DNA of 64,000 bases, taken from assembly GCA_022925895.1 (NCBI GenBank), contig JAKSYS010000094.1:1-64000 (forward strand). The letters run 5' to 3'. Of the stretch, positions 23,494 through 35,713 are shown one piece after another. This DNA is from Fragilaria crotonensis. Its lineage: Eukaryota > Bacillariophyta > Fragilariophyceae > Fragilariales > Fragilariaceae. Under the pieces are notes generated by a model. It made no database searches, was not told the origin of the DNA, and saw nothing but the letters and a program-made list of their open reading frames with translations. The position numbers were made by a program, and so were the translations under genes. How positions within the stretch are numbered: the stretch's first letter is position 1; every line of letters starts with the position of its first letter.

Positions 23494-26400
23494 CGTTTTA
23501 AAACGATCAGTTAGATTGTAACGATGGAAGAGCAGAAGGAAGCTACGTTCGGGTCTACGATCAGGGCATTCGCCTTCGACGGCGATGAGACGAAGTTCAG
23601 GTCCTGGGAAGGGAAGACGATCGCTCTCGCCGGTTCGAAGGGCTTCCTCCTCGCTCTCACCAAGGCACCTACGGCCACTGGGTTGACTGCTGAAGAGTTC
23701 GAGAACGGCGAAGTCGTCGTGCTGGGCGCGCTGTTGACTGGCGGTGACGTGGATGCGACCGGAGCACCTCTTCGTGCTGCTTCGACGACTCGTACGCCTA
23801 CGACTGCGGAGAACAGGAAGTACAGCGCACGTGCGGCCGCTTGGACTTACCTTGTTGCTAGCTGCTCGGATAAAGCCTACGCTTTGATTGAGCGCAGCGC
23901 CGGCGATCCTTTCATGGCTTGGACGATCTTGCAGGAGAAGTATTGCTCTACGGACGCGGAAGAGAACTATCCAGATCTCGCGGAGGCTTTCAGCGCATGC
24001 AAGTTGGTGGAAGTCAAGCGTGACCCCGAGTTGTGGTTTAACGACTTGGATCATCTAAACATGCGCATTGGCAGGATCAACACGAAGTATGAGAAGGACG
24101 AACTACAAATGAAAGCCCACATCATGAACGCGATGTCTTCGGGATACGATCCGGTGGTGGTGAAGTTTCGCGGCGAACTTGCAGAGACTTCGCTTACCAA
24201 GCTCAGAAAGGAGATTGTTCTCCAGTATAAGTCTTTGGTGAAGGTGAAGGGCAAGTCCACTTCGGAGTCTGCTTTGTTGGCGAATGCGAACAAACATCCA
24301 TTCAAGAAGTTCAAAGGAACCTGCAGGAATTGTGGCAAGATTGGCCACAAAGCGGCTGACTGCACCTCGAAGGCAACCGAAGGGAATGGCGCATCCGGAA
24401 AGGGCAAAGGCACCGCTGACAAGTCTCACGTCACGTGCTACAATTGCGGCGAAAAAGGGCACTATTCTAACAAGTGTCCTAAACCCAAGAAGGATAAAGT
24501 CAAGGGTGAAGAAGCTACAGCTGATATGGCTATGTTTGTGGGCGTCGCTCGCTTCGTTACGGAGATCGGCGACGACAATGGCGGTCAGGAGGCGAGGAAC
24601 GGCGACAGGACCAACGATTGGGACGATTCTGAGTTTTTTGATTTTGGAGAAATATGTGGAGTCATTGGAGTCAGGTCCGACGGCACGATCCCCCATTTTG
24701 AAATTCCTACCATTGTCGCGGAGGACTCTGGTACGAAATTTGTCGGAGCTACGACCATTACGGTCATTAACCACCCTATCGATCATTATGCCGGCTACTC
24801 CGTGACAAGGGATTTTGTCGGAACTGCGGATGCTTCCTGTACGAATGGTATCGAGGAATGGTTACTGGATTCGGGTGCCACTTCGGGCGTTACTTACGAC
24901 AACAGTCATATGACTGATATGCGTCCATCAAACCGCAAGATCGAAATCGGAAACGGTGACATGATTGAGACATTTGGACAAGGTACGGTGACACTGTTGG
25001 ACAATGACGGCAAGTTGGTTTACTTCACAGATGTGTACTATGCGCCTGAGTTTACGAAACATATTGTCAGTTTTCGCCAGCTCATCGAAAAGAATTGGAG
25101 TCTCACTTCGGTCTCGCGTGACGAATTTGTCTGGGATGCTCCAATGTCTACTGAACCGGTACGATTCAAAATGAATGCCTCGGACAAATTGTGTTACTTT
25201 GAGGGTACGAGGACAACGGTGCCGGAGGAACACCTTACAGTAAATAGTTTAACTGCAAGTCCTGTGACTCTTGATATCAATGTTGCTCACGGACTGCTCG
25301 GTCATCCTGACACTCGGACTGTGAAGGCTATGGCGGCGCAACACGATTGGATTTTGACGGGTTCGGTTCAACCATGTGGATCGTGTGCACTTGCTAAGGC
25401 ACGAGCCAAAGCAGTTCCAAAGTCTACGTTGACGAAGGCGAAGGTTCCCGGAGAAAGACTCTTTTTGGACATTTCGGGACCATACGCCGACTCGCTGAAT
25501 CAAAATAAGTACTGGCTTCGGATCGTGGACGACTTTTCGAAATTCAGTTGGGACTGTTTTCTTCCTAAGAAGAGTGGAATTCAGATTCCGTTGGCGAAAT
25601 TACTTAAGGCTAATAAAGCCGCTGGAAAGCCCTGCAAATTCTTGCGCTGCGACAATGCTGGAGAAAATGAGTCTTATGTACAGGAGCTTTGTGTGGAATA
25701 TGATGTCATACTTGAAATGACTGCTCCTAACACTCCCCAGATGAACGGTGTCGTGGAACGGAGCTTCGTGACATGTCGTAATCGTGCTTTCGCTACTATG
25801 TACTGTGCGAAACTTTCTTTGGAGACCCAGGCATTGTTGTGGCCGGAGGCAATTAACACGGTTACCAAGCTGGGCAATTCACTACCTAAGAAGGGAGCGT
25901 CCGATGACCCGTATACTTTGTGGTACGGTGCGGAGGGTAAGAAGAACCGTATTCTGGACTATTTGCAACCTTTCGGACGTGTCGCGTACATCACGAATCG
26001 GTCGAAGCTCAAGGCTAAGTTGGATCCGAAATCATTTAAGTGCATCTTTGTCGGATATTCGGATGACCATTCTGGCGACACTTATAAGTTTTATAACCCT
26101 GCGACTAAGCAGACCATTTTGTCTCGTGACGTGCATCAGTGGATGGAGTGGCATGGACGAATCAGTGCTACGGATGACCTACCTCTGTTTGAACAGTTGA
26201 AGATTCTCGAGGACAGTTCGGTCATTGTGCCTGCTTCTGCGATTGTTCCTTATGTTGAAGATGCCGACGTTCGTGATGTTGATGATCTTCTGGACATTCC
26301 TGCCGCTACGCCTGGACCGGTCGCGGAGGATGTCATACCAAACGCGCCAGCTATCGTCGATGTTCCTGCACGGAGGAATTTGGCTGCCTCATTCTCGCCA

Positions 26401-28155
26401 GCGCATACGAGATCGAAGACGGCGAGAGCAGCTATGCCGGACATGGACGTTGCTGCGATGTCTGTTCTATGCGAGACGATACTAAGTGCGACGTTGCAAT
26501 CGGATCCACAGTTGGGAGTACCAAAGAACTACAAGGATTTAGTTAAGCAAAACGACCCTCTATGGATAAAGTCGATGCATTCGGAACTCGAGAATTTCCT
26601 GAAGCGTAACGCCTGGGAATTCCTACGTCGAAGCATGCTACCGCAAGGCCGTAAGACACTGCGAACTCGCTGGATATTTAAGGAGAAGACGGACGGGACT
26701 AAGAAGTCACGATCAGTCATACTGGGCTACGAGCAGGTACCTGGCGTAGATTTCAATGACTCTTACTCGCCACTTGCGTCGAATCCCACCATCAGACTTG
26801 TATTATGCATCACACTGGCAAACGGACGTAAGAAAGATTATTGGGTAACGGACATGATTGATGTTGAAGCTGCTTTCTTAAATGCTCTTATGGATCAAGA
26901 CATTTTTATCGAGCTACCTGAAGGGCTGTTGGAATACTTCCTAAGTAAAGGAAAGGACCTTCGTGATTTTATTATCAAGCTACGGAGCGCACAGTACGGA
27001 TTGGTTCAGAGTCCGAGACTCTGGATGGAAACTTTTGCTAAGATATTGATCGGACTCGGGTTAATACAGTGTAAAACTGATCCGTGCTTGTTTATGCTGT
27101 TTACAGATGGCGAACTTCAAGCTCTCGTGGTGGTTTACTGCGACGACTGCATCGTAACGGGCACTCCGTCAGCCGTTAAGACAATCAAGAAGGGGGTCGC
27201 TGGCTCTGTCACTATCTCGGACTTAGGCAGGCTAAAGCGACATCTTGGTGTTAATTACGAGTTCGGAACGGACAAAAATGGCGACTATATTCTGTCCGGT
27301 ATGACGGATTATCTTGAGGCCATTGTTCGAGACTACGAAGAGTACATCGGAAGTGACGTCAAGGAACGGTCGACTCCCGGTGCATCTCTGGTGCTCTACG
27401 CCCGAAGACGAAATCATCAATATGGAAATGTTTCGGTCATTTGTCGGACGAATTCTATTTGCATGTGGCAAGACGGAACCTACTATAGCTAATGCGTGCA
27501 GAGAACTGACCTCACACCTTACTGCCCCAAACGAAGAACATTGGAACGCTCTGAGTCATTTGGTGGGATATCTTAAGACTGCGTCACTTCAAGGAATCAA
27601 GATGAGGACTCCCGATGATTTAAGAGTGGTTGCCTATGTCGATTCGGACTATGCCGGTGACAGAAACGATCGGAAGAGTATCTCTGGTTACTTGGTCACG
27701 GTTGGAGGATGTCTTGTGTCTTGGATGTCTAAGAAACAGACTGGTGTCACTCTGTCCTCAACGGAAGCAGAGTTTGTGGCTATGAGCAACGTGGCGACTG
27801 AGGTAAAATTCATTGTGTCTCTACTCACGGAGATTATGGGAGGCGGACCTGACGGATCCGACGGCGAAGGGAAAGGTCCAATCATGCCGAGCATTCTACG
27901 CGAGGATAATACCGGGGCGATCTTTATGGCGAAGAACACTGCCATCACACCCAGGACGAAACACGTGGACATTCGAGCAAGATTCGTCAATGACATGGTT
28001 CAAGCGAAGGAATTGTCCGTGGAACACATTCGGAGTGAGGAAAACCCGAGCGACTGCATGACGAAGAATCTGCCGTTGGTATTGTTCAAGAAACACGCGG
28101 CACTTGTCTGTGACGGAATGTTTACACGACTTCACGAACCGACGAACACGGAGGA
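23494..28155 (+). other. Internal Gag-Pol region of the young Copia element
   Basis: Coding begins about 30 bp after the 5' LTR. Parts in order are a Gag-like domain, two zinc knuckles (CRNCGKIGHKAADC and CYNCGEKGHYSNKC), protease, the GAG-pre-integrase segment (HGLLGHPDTRT), the integrase core, reverse transcriptase (DVEAAFLNA and YCDD boxes) and RNase H (YVDSDYAGD, STEAEFVA, DIRARF). Coding potential runs up to the 3' LTR. GC content is higher than in the surrounding intergenic DNA. The region carries about one break. The minus-strand frames inside it are shadows. Confidence 0.9.
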
Positions 28156-28714
28156 TGTCAGATCATACTGTGCTACCGTTGGTACTGTTGGTGGAATCGA
28201 CGGTACGACCGTACGACGCGACAACGATATCGAGCTCGACAGTACGACTGTACCAAAGTACGACTGTAGTAAAACTAATTGTTCGTGCGGATCGACGTCC
28301 AGCAATGTCTATCAAGAGGAGGATCTTGGTTGGACGATTGTGGGCAAAGGTTCAAAGAAGTACAAGACCAAGACCTGACATAAGGAGATATGCCTTGAAG
28401 GCTGGAACTGTATGAAAGCCTTATTAGGCATATGTCTCTTGGGATTTGGAGACTGGGTTGATGAACTTGGTTTGCTTTCGGTCTTGGAGTTGGTCTTGTT
28501 CCAACTCGGACTTAAGGAAAGCAATCTTGTGTTTGTGTTGTTTTGTTGGATGGGATGTGTGTTCAATCTTGGGAGCTTTTGGAGTCCAAGAACAAGATTG
28601 GAATCGATCTAGAAAATGTAATTCTAAGATCTCACAATATTCGAAAACGGTATTTAGTAGTGTCTAGGAGAACTACTGGATTAAGAGTCTACGGTATTGT
28701 TGAATTGTTTAACA
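28156..28714 (+). repeat. 3' LTR of the young Copia element
   Basis: 559 bp copy of the 5' LTR, followed by the CATCGC target duplication at 28715-28720. Confidence 0.95.
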
Positions 28715-30378: not shown

Positions 30379-31377
30379 TCATGATGAACTCTCTCCATCC
30401 TGGCAATAACTCGACCTTGCAGCGCAATCATAGACACGACATGTTTCTTCATTCAGTCGACATTCGACCACGATCTCCATCTCATCGACTCTAACATTGC
30501 AATAGATAGTATTCCCATTTTCACTTGTGATCTCTCTTACAATCGACATGTCTAGAATAGGAGCACGTTTTTCCTCTTGATTGAGAGCTGCTCTCGGAAA
30601 GTCAGGATCAGTTTTGACCAAGAGGATTAACTCGTCGGGATCCATGGGCGAGTCAATCAAGCCAATCAAGCGCGGCACTTCTTCCTTTTCGGTCGAGCCG
30701 GCGGTCGCACCAATTGTTCCGTGCACTGGTCCCATCTCCTTGGTAAAATTGACATCTCTGGTGGATGCGGCACTGTCAGTCTCGAGCAGTACAGCCGGAG
30801 GTGCTGAAAATGTGGTCGAGGAAGGGGCGACGGTAAATGTGGGAGATGAGGATGGTGAACTTGCGATCTGTCTTCGGTCACCATTGTTTCTGACTAACAA
30901 CAGAAGAACCAACGCAATGCACAGACATATGAGGGATGGGAGCGTCAACAGAAGGCATGATGAAAGGAGCTTGCGAAGTTCAGTCGTCTTGGGCGAGAAA
31001 CTGAATGGAGGATTATTCGATGATACAGCCTCATCCTCTTCTTTCAGGGAAGGATCCTTATCATTCTGGATCCCTTTCATTGTCTGATTCCTTTTCGCGC
31101 GTAGTTCGTTTTCACTTTTGATGGCAATCCTCTGAAACAAGAACGAAGGCTCCTTCTGGAGATTGCCTCTTCTGTCAACGCTTGCACCAGAAACTTCATA
31201 CTGCTTTACGCCATTTACCATGTCTTCCATGGACACTGATGTCTTGTTGTCGTCGGATTCGTCGTCCAACAAAACGTTATCAGAACTGCCTTCATCAGAA
31301 ATGTACCTATTGAACGAGACACGCGTCATTCCATTGGTTGGTTTGCAAACCAACTCATGCATAGAAGCGTCACTCAT
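30379..31377 (-). CDS. Single-pass membrane protein of unknown function (332 aa)
   Basis: An intact minus-strand frame. Residues 1-135 are acidic and polar with several Lys/Glu clusters. A strongly hydrophobic segment at about 137-162 (LLLTLPSLICLCIALVLLLL) is followed by Arg-Asn-Asn and a Ser/Thr/Pro-rich stretch. No N-terminal signal peptide is evident, so a type II or tail-out orientation is likely. The last 45 residues contain six Cys, suggesting a small disulphide-bonded extracellular or lumenal domain. No enzyme domain is recognised. The start codon lies 117 bp from the end of a Harbinger-type insertion, so its promoter region has been altered. It may be lineage-specific. Confidence 0.7.
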   Translation of the reverse strand: MSDASMHELVCKPTNGMTRVSFNRYISDEGSSDNVLLDDESDDNKTSVSMEDMVNGVKQYEVSGASVDRRGNLQKEPSFLFQRIAIKSENELRAKRNQTMKGIQNDKDPSLKEEDEAVSSNNPPFSFSPKTTELRKLLSSCLLLTLPSLICLCIALVLLLLVRNNGDRRQIASSPSSSPTFTVAPSSTTFSAPPAVLLETDSAASTRDVNFTKEMGPVHGTIGATAGSTEKEEVPRLIGLIDSPMDPDELILLVKTDPDFPRAALNQEEKRAPILDMSIVREITSENGNTIYCNVRVDEMEIVVECRLNEETCRVYDCAARSSYCQDGESSS

Positions 31378-31720
31378 GATGATAATTCACAATGATTTGC
31401 AGTTTGGGAAATCGGTCCACACTGGCAAGCAACACAACCACTCAACGTTGTCATCGAAACTCTTGGTGTCCATCTGAGCATTTTCGTTCATAATGGAGCG
31501 ATCCTAAAAGCACAAATCACATTTTTTATGCAACACATTTTCCATGTGTGAAGACCATGTGTTCTTAACGTCTTTTTTGTGTTTTGTTAACACAAAATGT
31601 AGATTTGTGTCGTATATTTGACGTCGTTCCTAAAAGCACATATCACATTTAATGTGATTTGTGTAATGGTGTTGGAAGCATTCCGTCCACTCCATTTCCG
31701 TCAAAGTCTAAATTGTCAGG

Positions 31721-32545
31721 ATGGTCTCTTCGGACTTCATGATGTTGTACTTAATGTACACACTTGTCCAGAAGCGCAAACGGCAGTTGAATTCTCAACG
31801 GAGATGTCACTCCAGGTATCGGAAAAGCTTTTACAACCAGCTTTCGGAGTACGAACGTCGCATCCGACGACGTTATATACCTCGACCATCACTACAACTG
31901 CCCTCACAGAGTGCGTGGCGAAGACTTTACGAAGCCAAGCAGGATCAAGCGTTGCTTGATAACACTAACAGGGTTTGATTTTGCAACATTTGATTGGTTA
32001 GTTTTGAAGTTCAATCAGTACTACGATTCGCATTTGCCTTTTGTTGACACCAAGTATGGTCTGATTGTTCCATTGACGCGACAAACAGGTCGTCCGAGGC
32101 ATTGTTCTGGCATTGAAATTCTCGGACTTTGTCTGGCATGGACAAGAACCCGAGGATCCTGCATGGTCCTGCAGATGATTTTTGGCATGACCGCGAACTC
32201 AGTAAGCGTGTACCTTCGCTTTGGTCGTAGGATTCTGATCGCGGTTCTTAACAAAGAACCAGACGCTCGAATCAAGGTCCCGGATGTTGAAATGATACGG
32301 CAATACCAGCGCCTTGTATCGTTCAGACATCCAATGTTGGATGGAGTATGGTGTACAATGGACGGGCTTAAGTTGCACCTACAACAAGCCCCAAAAGTTG
32401 ACACAGAGAATAGGTTCTTCAATGGTTGGAAGCATGACCATTATGTCGGGGCGGTCATTGTTTTTTGTCCCGATGGGACAATACCCATTGTATGTTTTAA
32501 TGTCCCAGGCAGCGTCCACGATAGTCTTATTGCCGACTGGGGCAG
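31721..32545 (+). pseudogene. Harbinger transposase (DDE_Tnp_4), 5' part only
   Basis: The first piece (31721 to about 31960) is basic and ends SAWRRLYEAKQDQALL. The second (from about 31965) reads FDFATFDWLVLKF and continues with the DDE domain. CTMDGLKLHL carries the first Asp and PGSVHDSLIADWG the second. The third catalytic residue and everything after it are missing, replaced by antisense Myb-gene sequence that keeps the frame open to 32609. One frame change separates the two pieces at about 31960. It is not functional as a transposase. Confidence 0.85.
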
Positions 32546-32658
32546 TGTTCTGCTAAGACACGGTCCCACTCGTTATGTCCAACTGGGAGGACCTTTTCAA
32601 CAGCACTGAGAAGGGCATCCACCTCTTGATGGCTGAAGCCAGGCCCCCTTTTTGGCAT
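32527..32658 (-). pseudogene. Harbinger Myb/SANT-like DNA-binding protein, N-terminal fragment
   Basis: The minus-strand frame starts ATG at 32658 with MPKRGPGFSHQEVDALLSAV and continues to HNEWDRVLAEH. It matches the opening of the Myb-like accessory proteins that bring Harbinger transposases to their ends. It breaks off after about 38 residues at the deletion joint. Only the first helix of the domain remains. Confidence 0.8.
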
Positions 32659-33002
32659 GGTGCTGGTTTTTGTCACCTGGTTTAAGGATGAGTGCAATGG
32701 AAGCAGGAGAATTGAACGCGAAGTTGAAGGCGGGAATTTGGATTTAAAGTCATAGCTGGTATGTTTCAGCTGTAGAAAACGGATGTAGATTTTGTGCAAT
32801 GCGATTTGTGTGTGCACAAAATTTATTCGAGGGCAAATGGTGGTCAAACAAATTTGTGGATTTGTGCAAGGATTTTGGGGCCTATAACCAGATAAATAAC
32901 AAATGGGTCGCACATTTTTGGCGCGCTACCGTTATGGAACGTACGAGATTTGTGTAATCGTCCGTTGAAAAATGTGATTTGTGCTTTTAGGATCGCTCCA
33001 AT

Positions 33003-33895
33003 CTCGTACTTTGAGGAGATTTCCGCATTGAGTAAAAATATCAATTCTACTACTGGTTACTGTACTACTGTCTGTCCCGAGTACATTTGTGTATTTATGC
33101 GCTTGTTTTTGTCTACCAGGCACTGTACTCCAGTACTACGAGTAGACTACTGCATCCCTGGTACCGTGTACTACTATCATAGAGTACTTGTACTCTTGTA
33201 CTACGTATCATAATGATACCGTACAATGTAGCACATCCATCGCCAATCATCAACGACACAGGACTGCGACGGGATACGTGTAATTGTATTGTCGCGAACT
33301 TGGAGTACATATATGCATAAGCATACATTTTGTTGGCTATACCGTACTGAAGTAGAGCAAGTACCAAGTTTCTGGTAGTGTTGGCTGTTGATTCCCGGGA
33401 TTCAGGATGGTCCGACCTCCGACCTACAATAAATGTACTGTACCTGGTATGTATAATACAGCTGCCTTCAATCAATGCAGTTCAACGATTTATTTAATAA
33501 AAAGATCCATGTGCAATCCAATTACTCCCATTGTAATAATTCGGAATAATTCAATATTAATCCATCTATTCTTTAGTAGGGGTTTACAGTAAATAAATCT
33601 TCTCATTCCCAACTCCCGACAAAGAATCTTCACTCCTTCACTTTGAAACATGCTTCGATAATACATGTGCCTCTAGTAGTAGAGCACTGCTGCATACTTG
33701 ATACAGCCCAGTAGAGAGTATGTCAACAGCCATGAACTCATATGCATGCTACAGTACCAGGTTGTAGTGTACTCCGAGGACAAGTAGTGAACATTGAACA
33801 ACCTGGGTATTGTCAAAATTGCTACAGGAATCAACAATTCCATTGCAGTTTACTTGCTTGTTGTAGGCTACCGCGTATTGCGTGTTGGCAGGGGA
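33003..33895. other. Intergenic region without recognised gene
   Basis: A spacer rich in TAC/GTA and AGTACT words between the Harbinger element and the three-exon membrane protein gene. Open frames are short and unconvincing. Confidence 0.45.
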
Positions 33896-35713
33896 ATGAT
33901 ACAAGATAGCGAAAGAGTCATGATGGATGGAGAGGATTTGTTTCTGCGGCGGTGGCTGCAAACGGCAAGTGAACTTTACGACGAAATCACCTTCAACGCT
34001 CCGAACGACGTGTACAACTATAAAGCTCCAGACCCGTGGATTTCGTTCATGATTGGAGCGGTAAGTTTTTGACCTCGATTCACGTCATGGATGCACTTCA
34101 GAGTGCTTTGCTTGAAGTGCACGGAGTGCACAATCGTGGGCTAACACCAATTGTCCGGATTTCTGTTGCACCAATAGATATTTAGCGCGATTGGATTTGG
34201 GATGTGGATTCGTCGATTATATTTGATCAAACAACGACGCGACGTTCCTTTCCGTGGGTCTTATCTCATTCGAGCCATGATATCGACCGCCATTGATTCG
34301 GAAGAACCTTTCTACACCATTGCCAGTTTTTCCGCATTTTCCTTTCTGTTTCTCGGTGGGCTCCAATTGGACTATCGGATTTCGTTCATTGTCATGCTAG
34401 GCATATTTGCCATGACGAGTGCGGGAGATTCGATTCGAGTCATCTTGGCCTTTCGGGATGCCACTTCCTTGTCAGACGCTTTCGTCTCTAGTGACATCAT
34501 GGAGAGTTCGATGCGTAAGGCGGTCGAGACGGAACTCAAACCGGCGAACGTCTATGAAGATCTAGGTCGAGGAAGGACCATCGTGATAATGGTATTCATT
34601 ACGCAGGCTGTTCTGATTTCATTTGTGGTACGTACTGCGTAGCACTCGCGCCTACTGCTTCCTTGGCCATTTGAATCCCTCTGATTATAGTGCTACGTGT
34701 CCCAGGTTATAGACATCATGTCCTCGCAGACTTTCAAATGCCCTGATGGCACTCCGAATTGCCCCATCTTTGGTACATTCGGTTCGTGGTCATTGTACGT
34801 GCTGGGAATCTTTATGGCTTGCGTTTATATTCTTGGTCCAAAGACCTCGTTTGGTCAATCCGAACAAAACCCGGCGTTTTGGTTGCAATTGCTCTTGATT
34901 TCCAAACGTGTTGGTGCGAAGTGTACGTGGTACGATCCTGTTGCAAACGTGACCAAGGAGCGATTCCTGCGTTCCAATGACAGTCACATTTGGGGTCGTT
35001 TTTTCATGTCGTTTTTGATTAACGGTGTCGGGTTTCACATATTGGTACATGCGTTGCCCATCCAAGTAGCGTATCAATCGACCTTGACCGGCGTTGTCAT
35101 TCGTGCGGTTGGTATGATGTACTTGGTGGATCTCGACGATACCACAGGTTACACCCTCACACTGGTGGAAGACAAAAAACCTGAAAAAGGAACGGAAGAG
35201 GTTAGCACGCCAGAGGATGATCCTACTCCTGACTGGTGTACACCAGAAGCCGAGGTCCCGTTCAACCCACCACCTCCACGGCAGATCAACACTTCGGAGC
35301 TATCCGATGAAGCAGAGCGCATCATTAATGAAGCCATGGAGAAGCTGAATGCATTGAAGCGCGGTGAAGCATCAACAGCCAACATTAGTATGCGAGACGT
35401 TGCGGGATCGTTGCTTATGATGCCTAGGGCAAAGGATGTTGCGAGTTTCCGTGTTGATGACAATGGCGATGGTGAACGGGCGATGCCGTTGTCTCAGAGT
35501 CAGAATCCCATCGAAGGGGCTACTTTGGTCAAAAACGGAAAGGGCATTGACGCAGGGGATGGCGACGGCGACGTCGACCCCTTGATCCCAGTGTCTCACA
35601 GTAAGAATCCAATTCAAGGGGTTGCTGTCGTCAATAATAGAAACGACATTGAAGGAGGTGGTGTTAAAAAGCCTGAAAAACAGTGGCTGAACGCGGAAAA
35701 CGGACCAGTGTAA
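33896..35713 (+). CDS. Multi-pass membrane protein of unknown function, three exons (545 aa)
   Basis: The exons are 33896-34060, 34178-34627 and 34691-35713. Both introns (117 and 63 bp) are GT-AG and in phase 0, and the joined frame is open. The first ATG in frame at 33896 is used; another lies at 33923. Hydrophobic segments occur in exon 2 (AFSFLFLGGL, FIVMLGIFAM and IVIMVFITQAVLISFVV) and exon 3 (LYVLGIFMACVYILG, FFMSFLINGVGFHILVHAL and VVIRAVGMMYLV), giving about six membrane passes. The last 190 residues are acidic, Pro-rich and cytosolic-looking, with a helical EAERIINEAMEKLNAL stretch. Two similar Gln/Ser-Asn-Pro-Ile motifs (SQSQNPIEGA and SHSKNPIQGV) form an imperfect internal repeat. 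No channel or transporter signature is recognised. Confidence 0.8.

Follow-up and report, generated by a model that had tools for sequence, protein, structure and literature searches.

A 1505-bp transposon with two gene fragments

The 64,000-nucleotide (nt) stretch of Fragilaria crotonensis DNA analysed here, which we call the window, lies on contig C877 of the 62-Mb assembly G000 and contains a transposon of 1505 bp at 31495-32999. The element carries a fragment of a transposase gene on the plus strand and a fragment of a Myb-like gene on the minus strand. Very probably it is non-autonomous and descends, by one internal deletion, from a two-gene transposon of the ANT-targeting Pangu group (PHIS superfamily). 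Its features are given below, with C111 and C209 standing for two longer elements in the same genome; other copies are named in the same way.

31492-31494, no strand: left AAT target site duplication (sequence)
31495-31526, plus strand: left terminal inverted repeat, 32 bp, starting GGAGCGATCCTAAAA (repeat search)
31625-31650, plus strand: second copy of the inverted end as a subterminal direct repeat, 26 nt, 92% (repeat search)
31721-31969, plus strand: transposase gene, 5' part, in the first frame; matches C111 protein residues 1-83 (tblastn)
31950-32549, plus strand: transposase fragment in another frame; matches residues 76-275 out of 402 in the C111 protein (tblastn, Pfam)
32546-32549, no strand: putative deletion junction TGTT (comparison with C111 and C209)
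32545-32658, minus strand: 5' 38 codons of the DUF6818/Myb-like partner gene (comparison with the C209 partner)
32968-32999, minus strand: right terminal inverted repeat, 32 bp (repeat search)
33000-33002, no strand: right AAT target site duplication (sequence)

The inverted ends start with GGAGCG and are 100% complementary over 32 bp; the repeat finder gave 33 bp because the flanking T and A pair by chance. About 1e-11 such repeats are expected in a random window of equal composition with arms within 2 kb. The sequence GGAGCGATCCYAAAA was found at 27 exact places in the assembly and at 51 when one mismatch was allowed, with 6 in the backward control. Of the 51 end-like places 24 carry a mismatch, and in view of the control count some of the 51 are chance. 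The 26-nt subterminal repeat corresponds to positions 152-173 of C111.

The plus-strand frame at 31791-32609 (272 codons) matched DDE_Tnp_4 (PF13359) at E=7e-7 over profile positions 1-62 of 158, and the fragment thus covers just the beginning of the catalytic domain. The piece at 31950-32549 is 85% identical to residues 76-275 of the C111 protein. A frameshift within 31950-31969 splits the gene, placing residues 1-83 and 76-275 in different frames by tblastn, while the 272-codon frame runs open across the junction. On the minus strand, 38 residues at 32658-32545 are 74% identical to the C209 partner protein, and the frame that holds them matched Pfam Myb weakly (E=0.25). This fragment is predicted to stop inside the second helix, with the third helix lost. 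A first-pass annotation, made from the sequence alone, had described the perfect 32-bp ends, the AAT duplication beside them and two gene fragments that both stop at about 32545, one of a transposase on the plus strand and one, Myb-like and about 38 residues long, on the minus strand. All of these were recovered here, the two gene fragments ending at 32545-32549; the frameshift and the 26-bp direct repeat are features that it did not contain.

Longer relatives and the missing block

Relatives were sought in the assembly by DNA and protein searches that scored best candidates only, and the statements on relatives below hold within that scope. C111 is 4170 bp and C209 is 3973 bp long. Their flanks, compared over roughly 1.5 kb per side, are about 98% identical; the two thus occupy a common insertion site and are probably alleles, or else copies of a duplicated segment. 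The C111 transposase is an open frame of 441 codons, of which 402, counted from a chosen methionine, served as the query; it matched DDE_Tnp_4 in full (1-158 of 158, E=3e-16). Its partner gene is interrupted in the assembly, with matches lying in more than one frame. In C209 the transposase is the interrupted gene, its matches also spread over more than one frame, and the partner gene is open and matched Pfam DUF6818 at E=3e-11. The two genes are convergent, in agreement with the first-pass annotation's reading of two converging genes, in all five longer elements found that carry both (C111, C209, C517, C314 and C560, the first two taken separately). In C517 only one inverted end was recognised, and the partner matches of C314 and C560 are weak (E=4.5e-5 and 6.1e-5). 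The centre of C111 and C209 contains repeated stretches whose minus-strand reading is acidic and of low complexity, and the two copies differ there.

The window element aligned with both longer elements in two blocks: at its positions 1-1055 (80%) and 1052-1494 (72%) with C111, and at 13-1055 (80%) and 1052-1494 (74%) with C209. Between the blocks C111 has 2601 extra bp and C209 has 2414, and the 3' parts of both genes lie inside them. At the junction the window reads GGGGCAG-TGTT-CTGC, the left breakpoint of C111 reads GGGGCAG-TGTT-TATG and its right breakpoint reads ACTCA-TGTT-CTGC. The window element thus lacks one block relative to them, edged by 4-base microhomology at 32546-32549. Random pairs of C111 breakpoints had at least 4 bases in common in 1.9% of 100,000 draws. 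Because C111 is only a cousin, TGTT is a hint of microhomology-mediated repair and not proof of it.

Target site and other copies of the family

Duplications were counted in 15 two-ended members (the window element, C111, C209, C19, C116, C770, C526, C44, C1, C187, C194, C435, C437, C534 and C712). An exact 3-bp duplication was present in 10 of these, without exception of the form ANT. Five are AAT or ATT and the other five ACT or AGT, the strand deciding which. Counted by distinct site the figure is 9 of 14, as C111 and C209 occupy one. ANT makes up 7.4% of the triplets in the window, and TWA does not occur among the 10 exact duplications. One-ended copies were excluded from this count (C492, C764, C452, C314, C416, C852, C797, C517 and C134); their outer triplet is ANT in seven of nine, the exceptions being C517 and C134, and C416 and C852, whose flanks are equal, may be a single site.

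Pangu, a group of the PHIS superfamily, is defined by ANT duplications; its inverted ends measure 11-40 bp and usually start with AG or GG, there are mostly two open reading frames (ORFs), and autonomous elements average about 3.5 kb (Han et al. 2015, PMC4482050); it has been equated with Harbinger2 of Repbase (PMC12730594). The family described here resembles Pangu in its ANT duplications, in its 32-bp ends starting with GG and in its two ORFs including a DDE transposase, which are present in C111 and C209 with one gene interrupted per copy. Its autonomous-type relatives are 4.0-4.2 kb long, compared with the Pangu average of about 3.5 kb. The second Pangu protein is given no known motif where Han et al. 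describe the group (PMC4482050), whereas the partner here matches DUF6818, and placement in Pangu rests on target, ends and ORFs. The C209 match suggests that the second gene of ANT-targeting elements is linked to DUF6818.

The first-pass annotation had called the element a Harbinger transposon whose AAT target departs from the usual TWA. The label holds broadly and is better narrowed to ANT-targeting Pangu (Harbinger2). The AAT duplication is real but is no anomaly, since all 10 exact duplications in the family are ANT, the hallmark and defining trait of that group.

Several other copies are short. C492 and C116 are 95-96% identical to the window element and 98% to each other; C116 is 749 bp long and the right end of C492 is damaged. 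At their two sites they have a common gap from about 435 to 1197 (element positions), which overlaps the window deletion but differs from it. C19 (818 bp) is 98.5-99.3% identical to C209 and has a separate deletion of its own. C770 (747 bp) and C526 (755 bp) are 99% identical and occupy two sites, whose duplications are ACT and ATT; C44, a relative at 85-87%, is 802 bp long and has an AGT duplication. A diverged lineage comprises seven two-ended copies of 1562-1571 bp, lengths derived from end positions, with seven different flanks (C1, C187, C194, C435, C437, C534 and C712). Each of the seven has matches to 5' pieces of the two genes, lying on opposite strands. In C712 (L042, 430-2000), the one diverged copy read whole, the transposase matches break off after residue 198 and pick up again at 303-354, and the partner is matched over residues 3-95; C712 thus lacks sequence both within the transposase and between the two genes.

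The presence of sister derivatives at several unrelated sites indicates that deletion derivatives of this family have moved. Short derivatives of about 1.5 kb that lost catalytic sequence and kept both 5' gene parts seem to have arisen at least twice, as the window element and as the 1562-1571-bp lineage. It is conceivable, though quite improbable in our estimate, that the 5' gene segments or the subterminal repeats were kept since transposition needs them in cis, or since short products regulate an active element.

Origin of the short element and its surroundings

In the history that we favour, the ancestor would have carried a plus-strand DDE transposase gene and a minus-strand gene for a Myb-like DUF6818 protein, tail to tail. 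A single deletion, of about 2.4-2.6 kb as judged on the cousin, would have joined the remaining parts at the 4-base microhomology. It would have cut off each gene at its 3' end, so that the final portion of the catalytic domain and the partner's third helix were lost, with both 5' gene parts and both element ends surviving. Such a deletion may have come from double-strand-break repair, for example interrupted gap repair after excision. Transposase and partner protein given in trans might then act on the intact ends, in line with the first-pass annotation's proposal that a full-length relative could still move the element.

Some observations weigh against this history. Of the copies that extend past the junction, C111 and C209 are the closest, with DNA identity of about 80% and protein identity of about 85%; at 72-80% identity to the window element they are cousins and not its parent. 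The assembly searches gave no copy more than about 80% identical to the left arm that reaches into the deleted stretch, and the size given for the lost block is therefore an estimate; the microhomology, too, is read from a cousin. The first-pass annotation had proposed that one deletion removed both 3' ends, to be checked on a longer element with the same ends. Longer elements with related ends were found and their interior is absent from the window element as one block at 32546-32549, which supports the proposal; they are cousins, however, and an inserted block sets the inner part of their inverted ends apart from that of the window element. Flanks are unequal in 5 of the 15 two-ended members (C19 TCT/ACT, C116 TAT/ACC, C194 ATT/AAT, C437 TGT/AGA and C712 ATT/AAA). 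Finally, a search of the assembly that allowed up to 3 mismatches found the window junction at one place and no second copy. It thus gives no evidence of movement of the window copy since the deletion, which may have occurred at the present site.

Three other explanations were weighed against a single deletion in a Pangu element. Recombination between two copies, which would have supplied the left arm from one and the right arm from the other, would account for the different identity of the arms to C111 (80% left, 72% right), and the genome holds related copies of several internal structures. However, the arms are about equally near the same-subfamily copies C116 and C492, at 95-96% (95% left and 96% right for C116), the right arm is mostly non-coding and expected to diverge faster, and the ends and target duplication match perfectly, so that we regard recombination as highly unlikely. 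The retained gene fragments might instead be functional short proteins, a truncated transposase or a Myb-like fragment serving as a repressor. Repression by truncated transposases is known from other families, and the 272-codon frame is open through the junction. Yet the transposase frame is broken around 31950-31969, the partner fragment is without its predicted third helix, and the junction occurs once in the assembly. This explanation, which we consider extremely improbable, was set aside on the frameshift and the loss of the third helix.

The remaining alternative takes the element for a canonical TWA-targeting PIF/Harbinger transposon inserted at an unusual AAT. The DDE_Tnp_4 transposase with a probably Myb-like partner is consistent with it, this being the gene pair given in Han et al. 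2015 (PMC4482050), and of the strict-sense PIF/Harbinger traits the DDE transposase is present. The TWA duplication is not: none of the 10 exact duplications in the family is TWA and all are ANT. A canonical element with a freak target is therefore unlikely, and it was set aside on the ANT pattern.

Around the insertion, a second copy of the left flank, 97% identical, lies on C386 and runs into the contig end (C386:1) at window position 31468, 26 bp short of the insertion point; it is probably the other haplotype. For the right flank (33000-33900), the assembly contains, besides itself, just two short matches on C476 (117 and 77 bp). A minus-strand frame at 30379-31386, of about 330 codons with a likely start at 31377 and a hydrophobic stretch, matched no Pfam family at E of 1 or below. 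The left end of the element is 117 bp upstream of this likely start codon, and the insertion may sit in the promoter of the frame. Further away, retroelement frames occupy 23515-28378: a 1325-codon frame with zinc knuckle, Pol beta-barrel, SH3-like domains and RVT_2 (the Ty1/Copia type), and a 357-codon frame that overlaps its end.

Both the architecture and the target are already known from a brown alga: the autonomous Harbinger elements of Ectocarpus all have two tail-to-tail genes, and one group of them has ANT duplications (PMC12477816). The window element resembles these in both respects, in another organism and as likened by description. In rice, mPing arose from Ping by deletion, and two element-encoded proteins mobilise it (PMC2836001); its mobility was shown experimentally, whereas the window element is known from sequence. 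Internal-deletion derivatives of PIF/Harbinger in Medicago are likewise plant elements, with TAA/TTA duplications. A keyword search of a teleost paper (PMC9179366) yielded no statement on gene orientation. Han et al. count one heterokontophyte host (PMC4482050), and no description of Pangu elements in a diatom was found in the literature searched, judged by titles and abstract openings. A diatom host agrees with the Rubisco large subunit found in the assembly, which has 490 residues and has its best PDB matches in 7yk5, 5n9z, 5mz2 and 5oya, all diatom enzymes.

The window element is a clear but ordinary case of a known kind and leaves the general picture unchanged. It provides a checkable example, with a breakpoint placed within four bases, of how two-gene Harbinger-type transposons give rise to short non-autonomous elements, and it suggests that a diatom is among the hosts of ANT-targeting (Pangu) elements.
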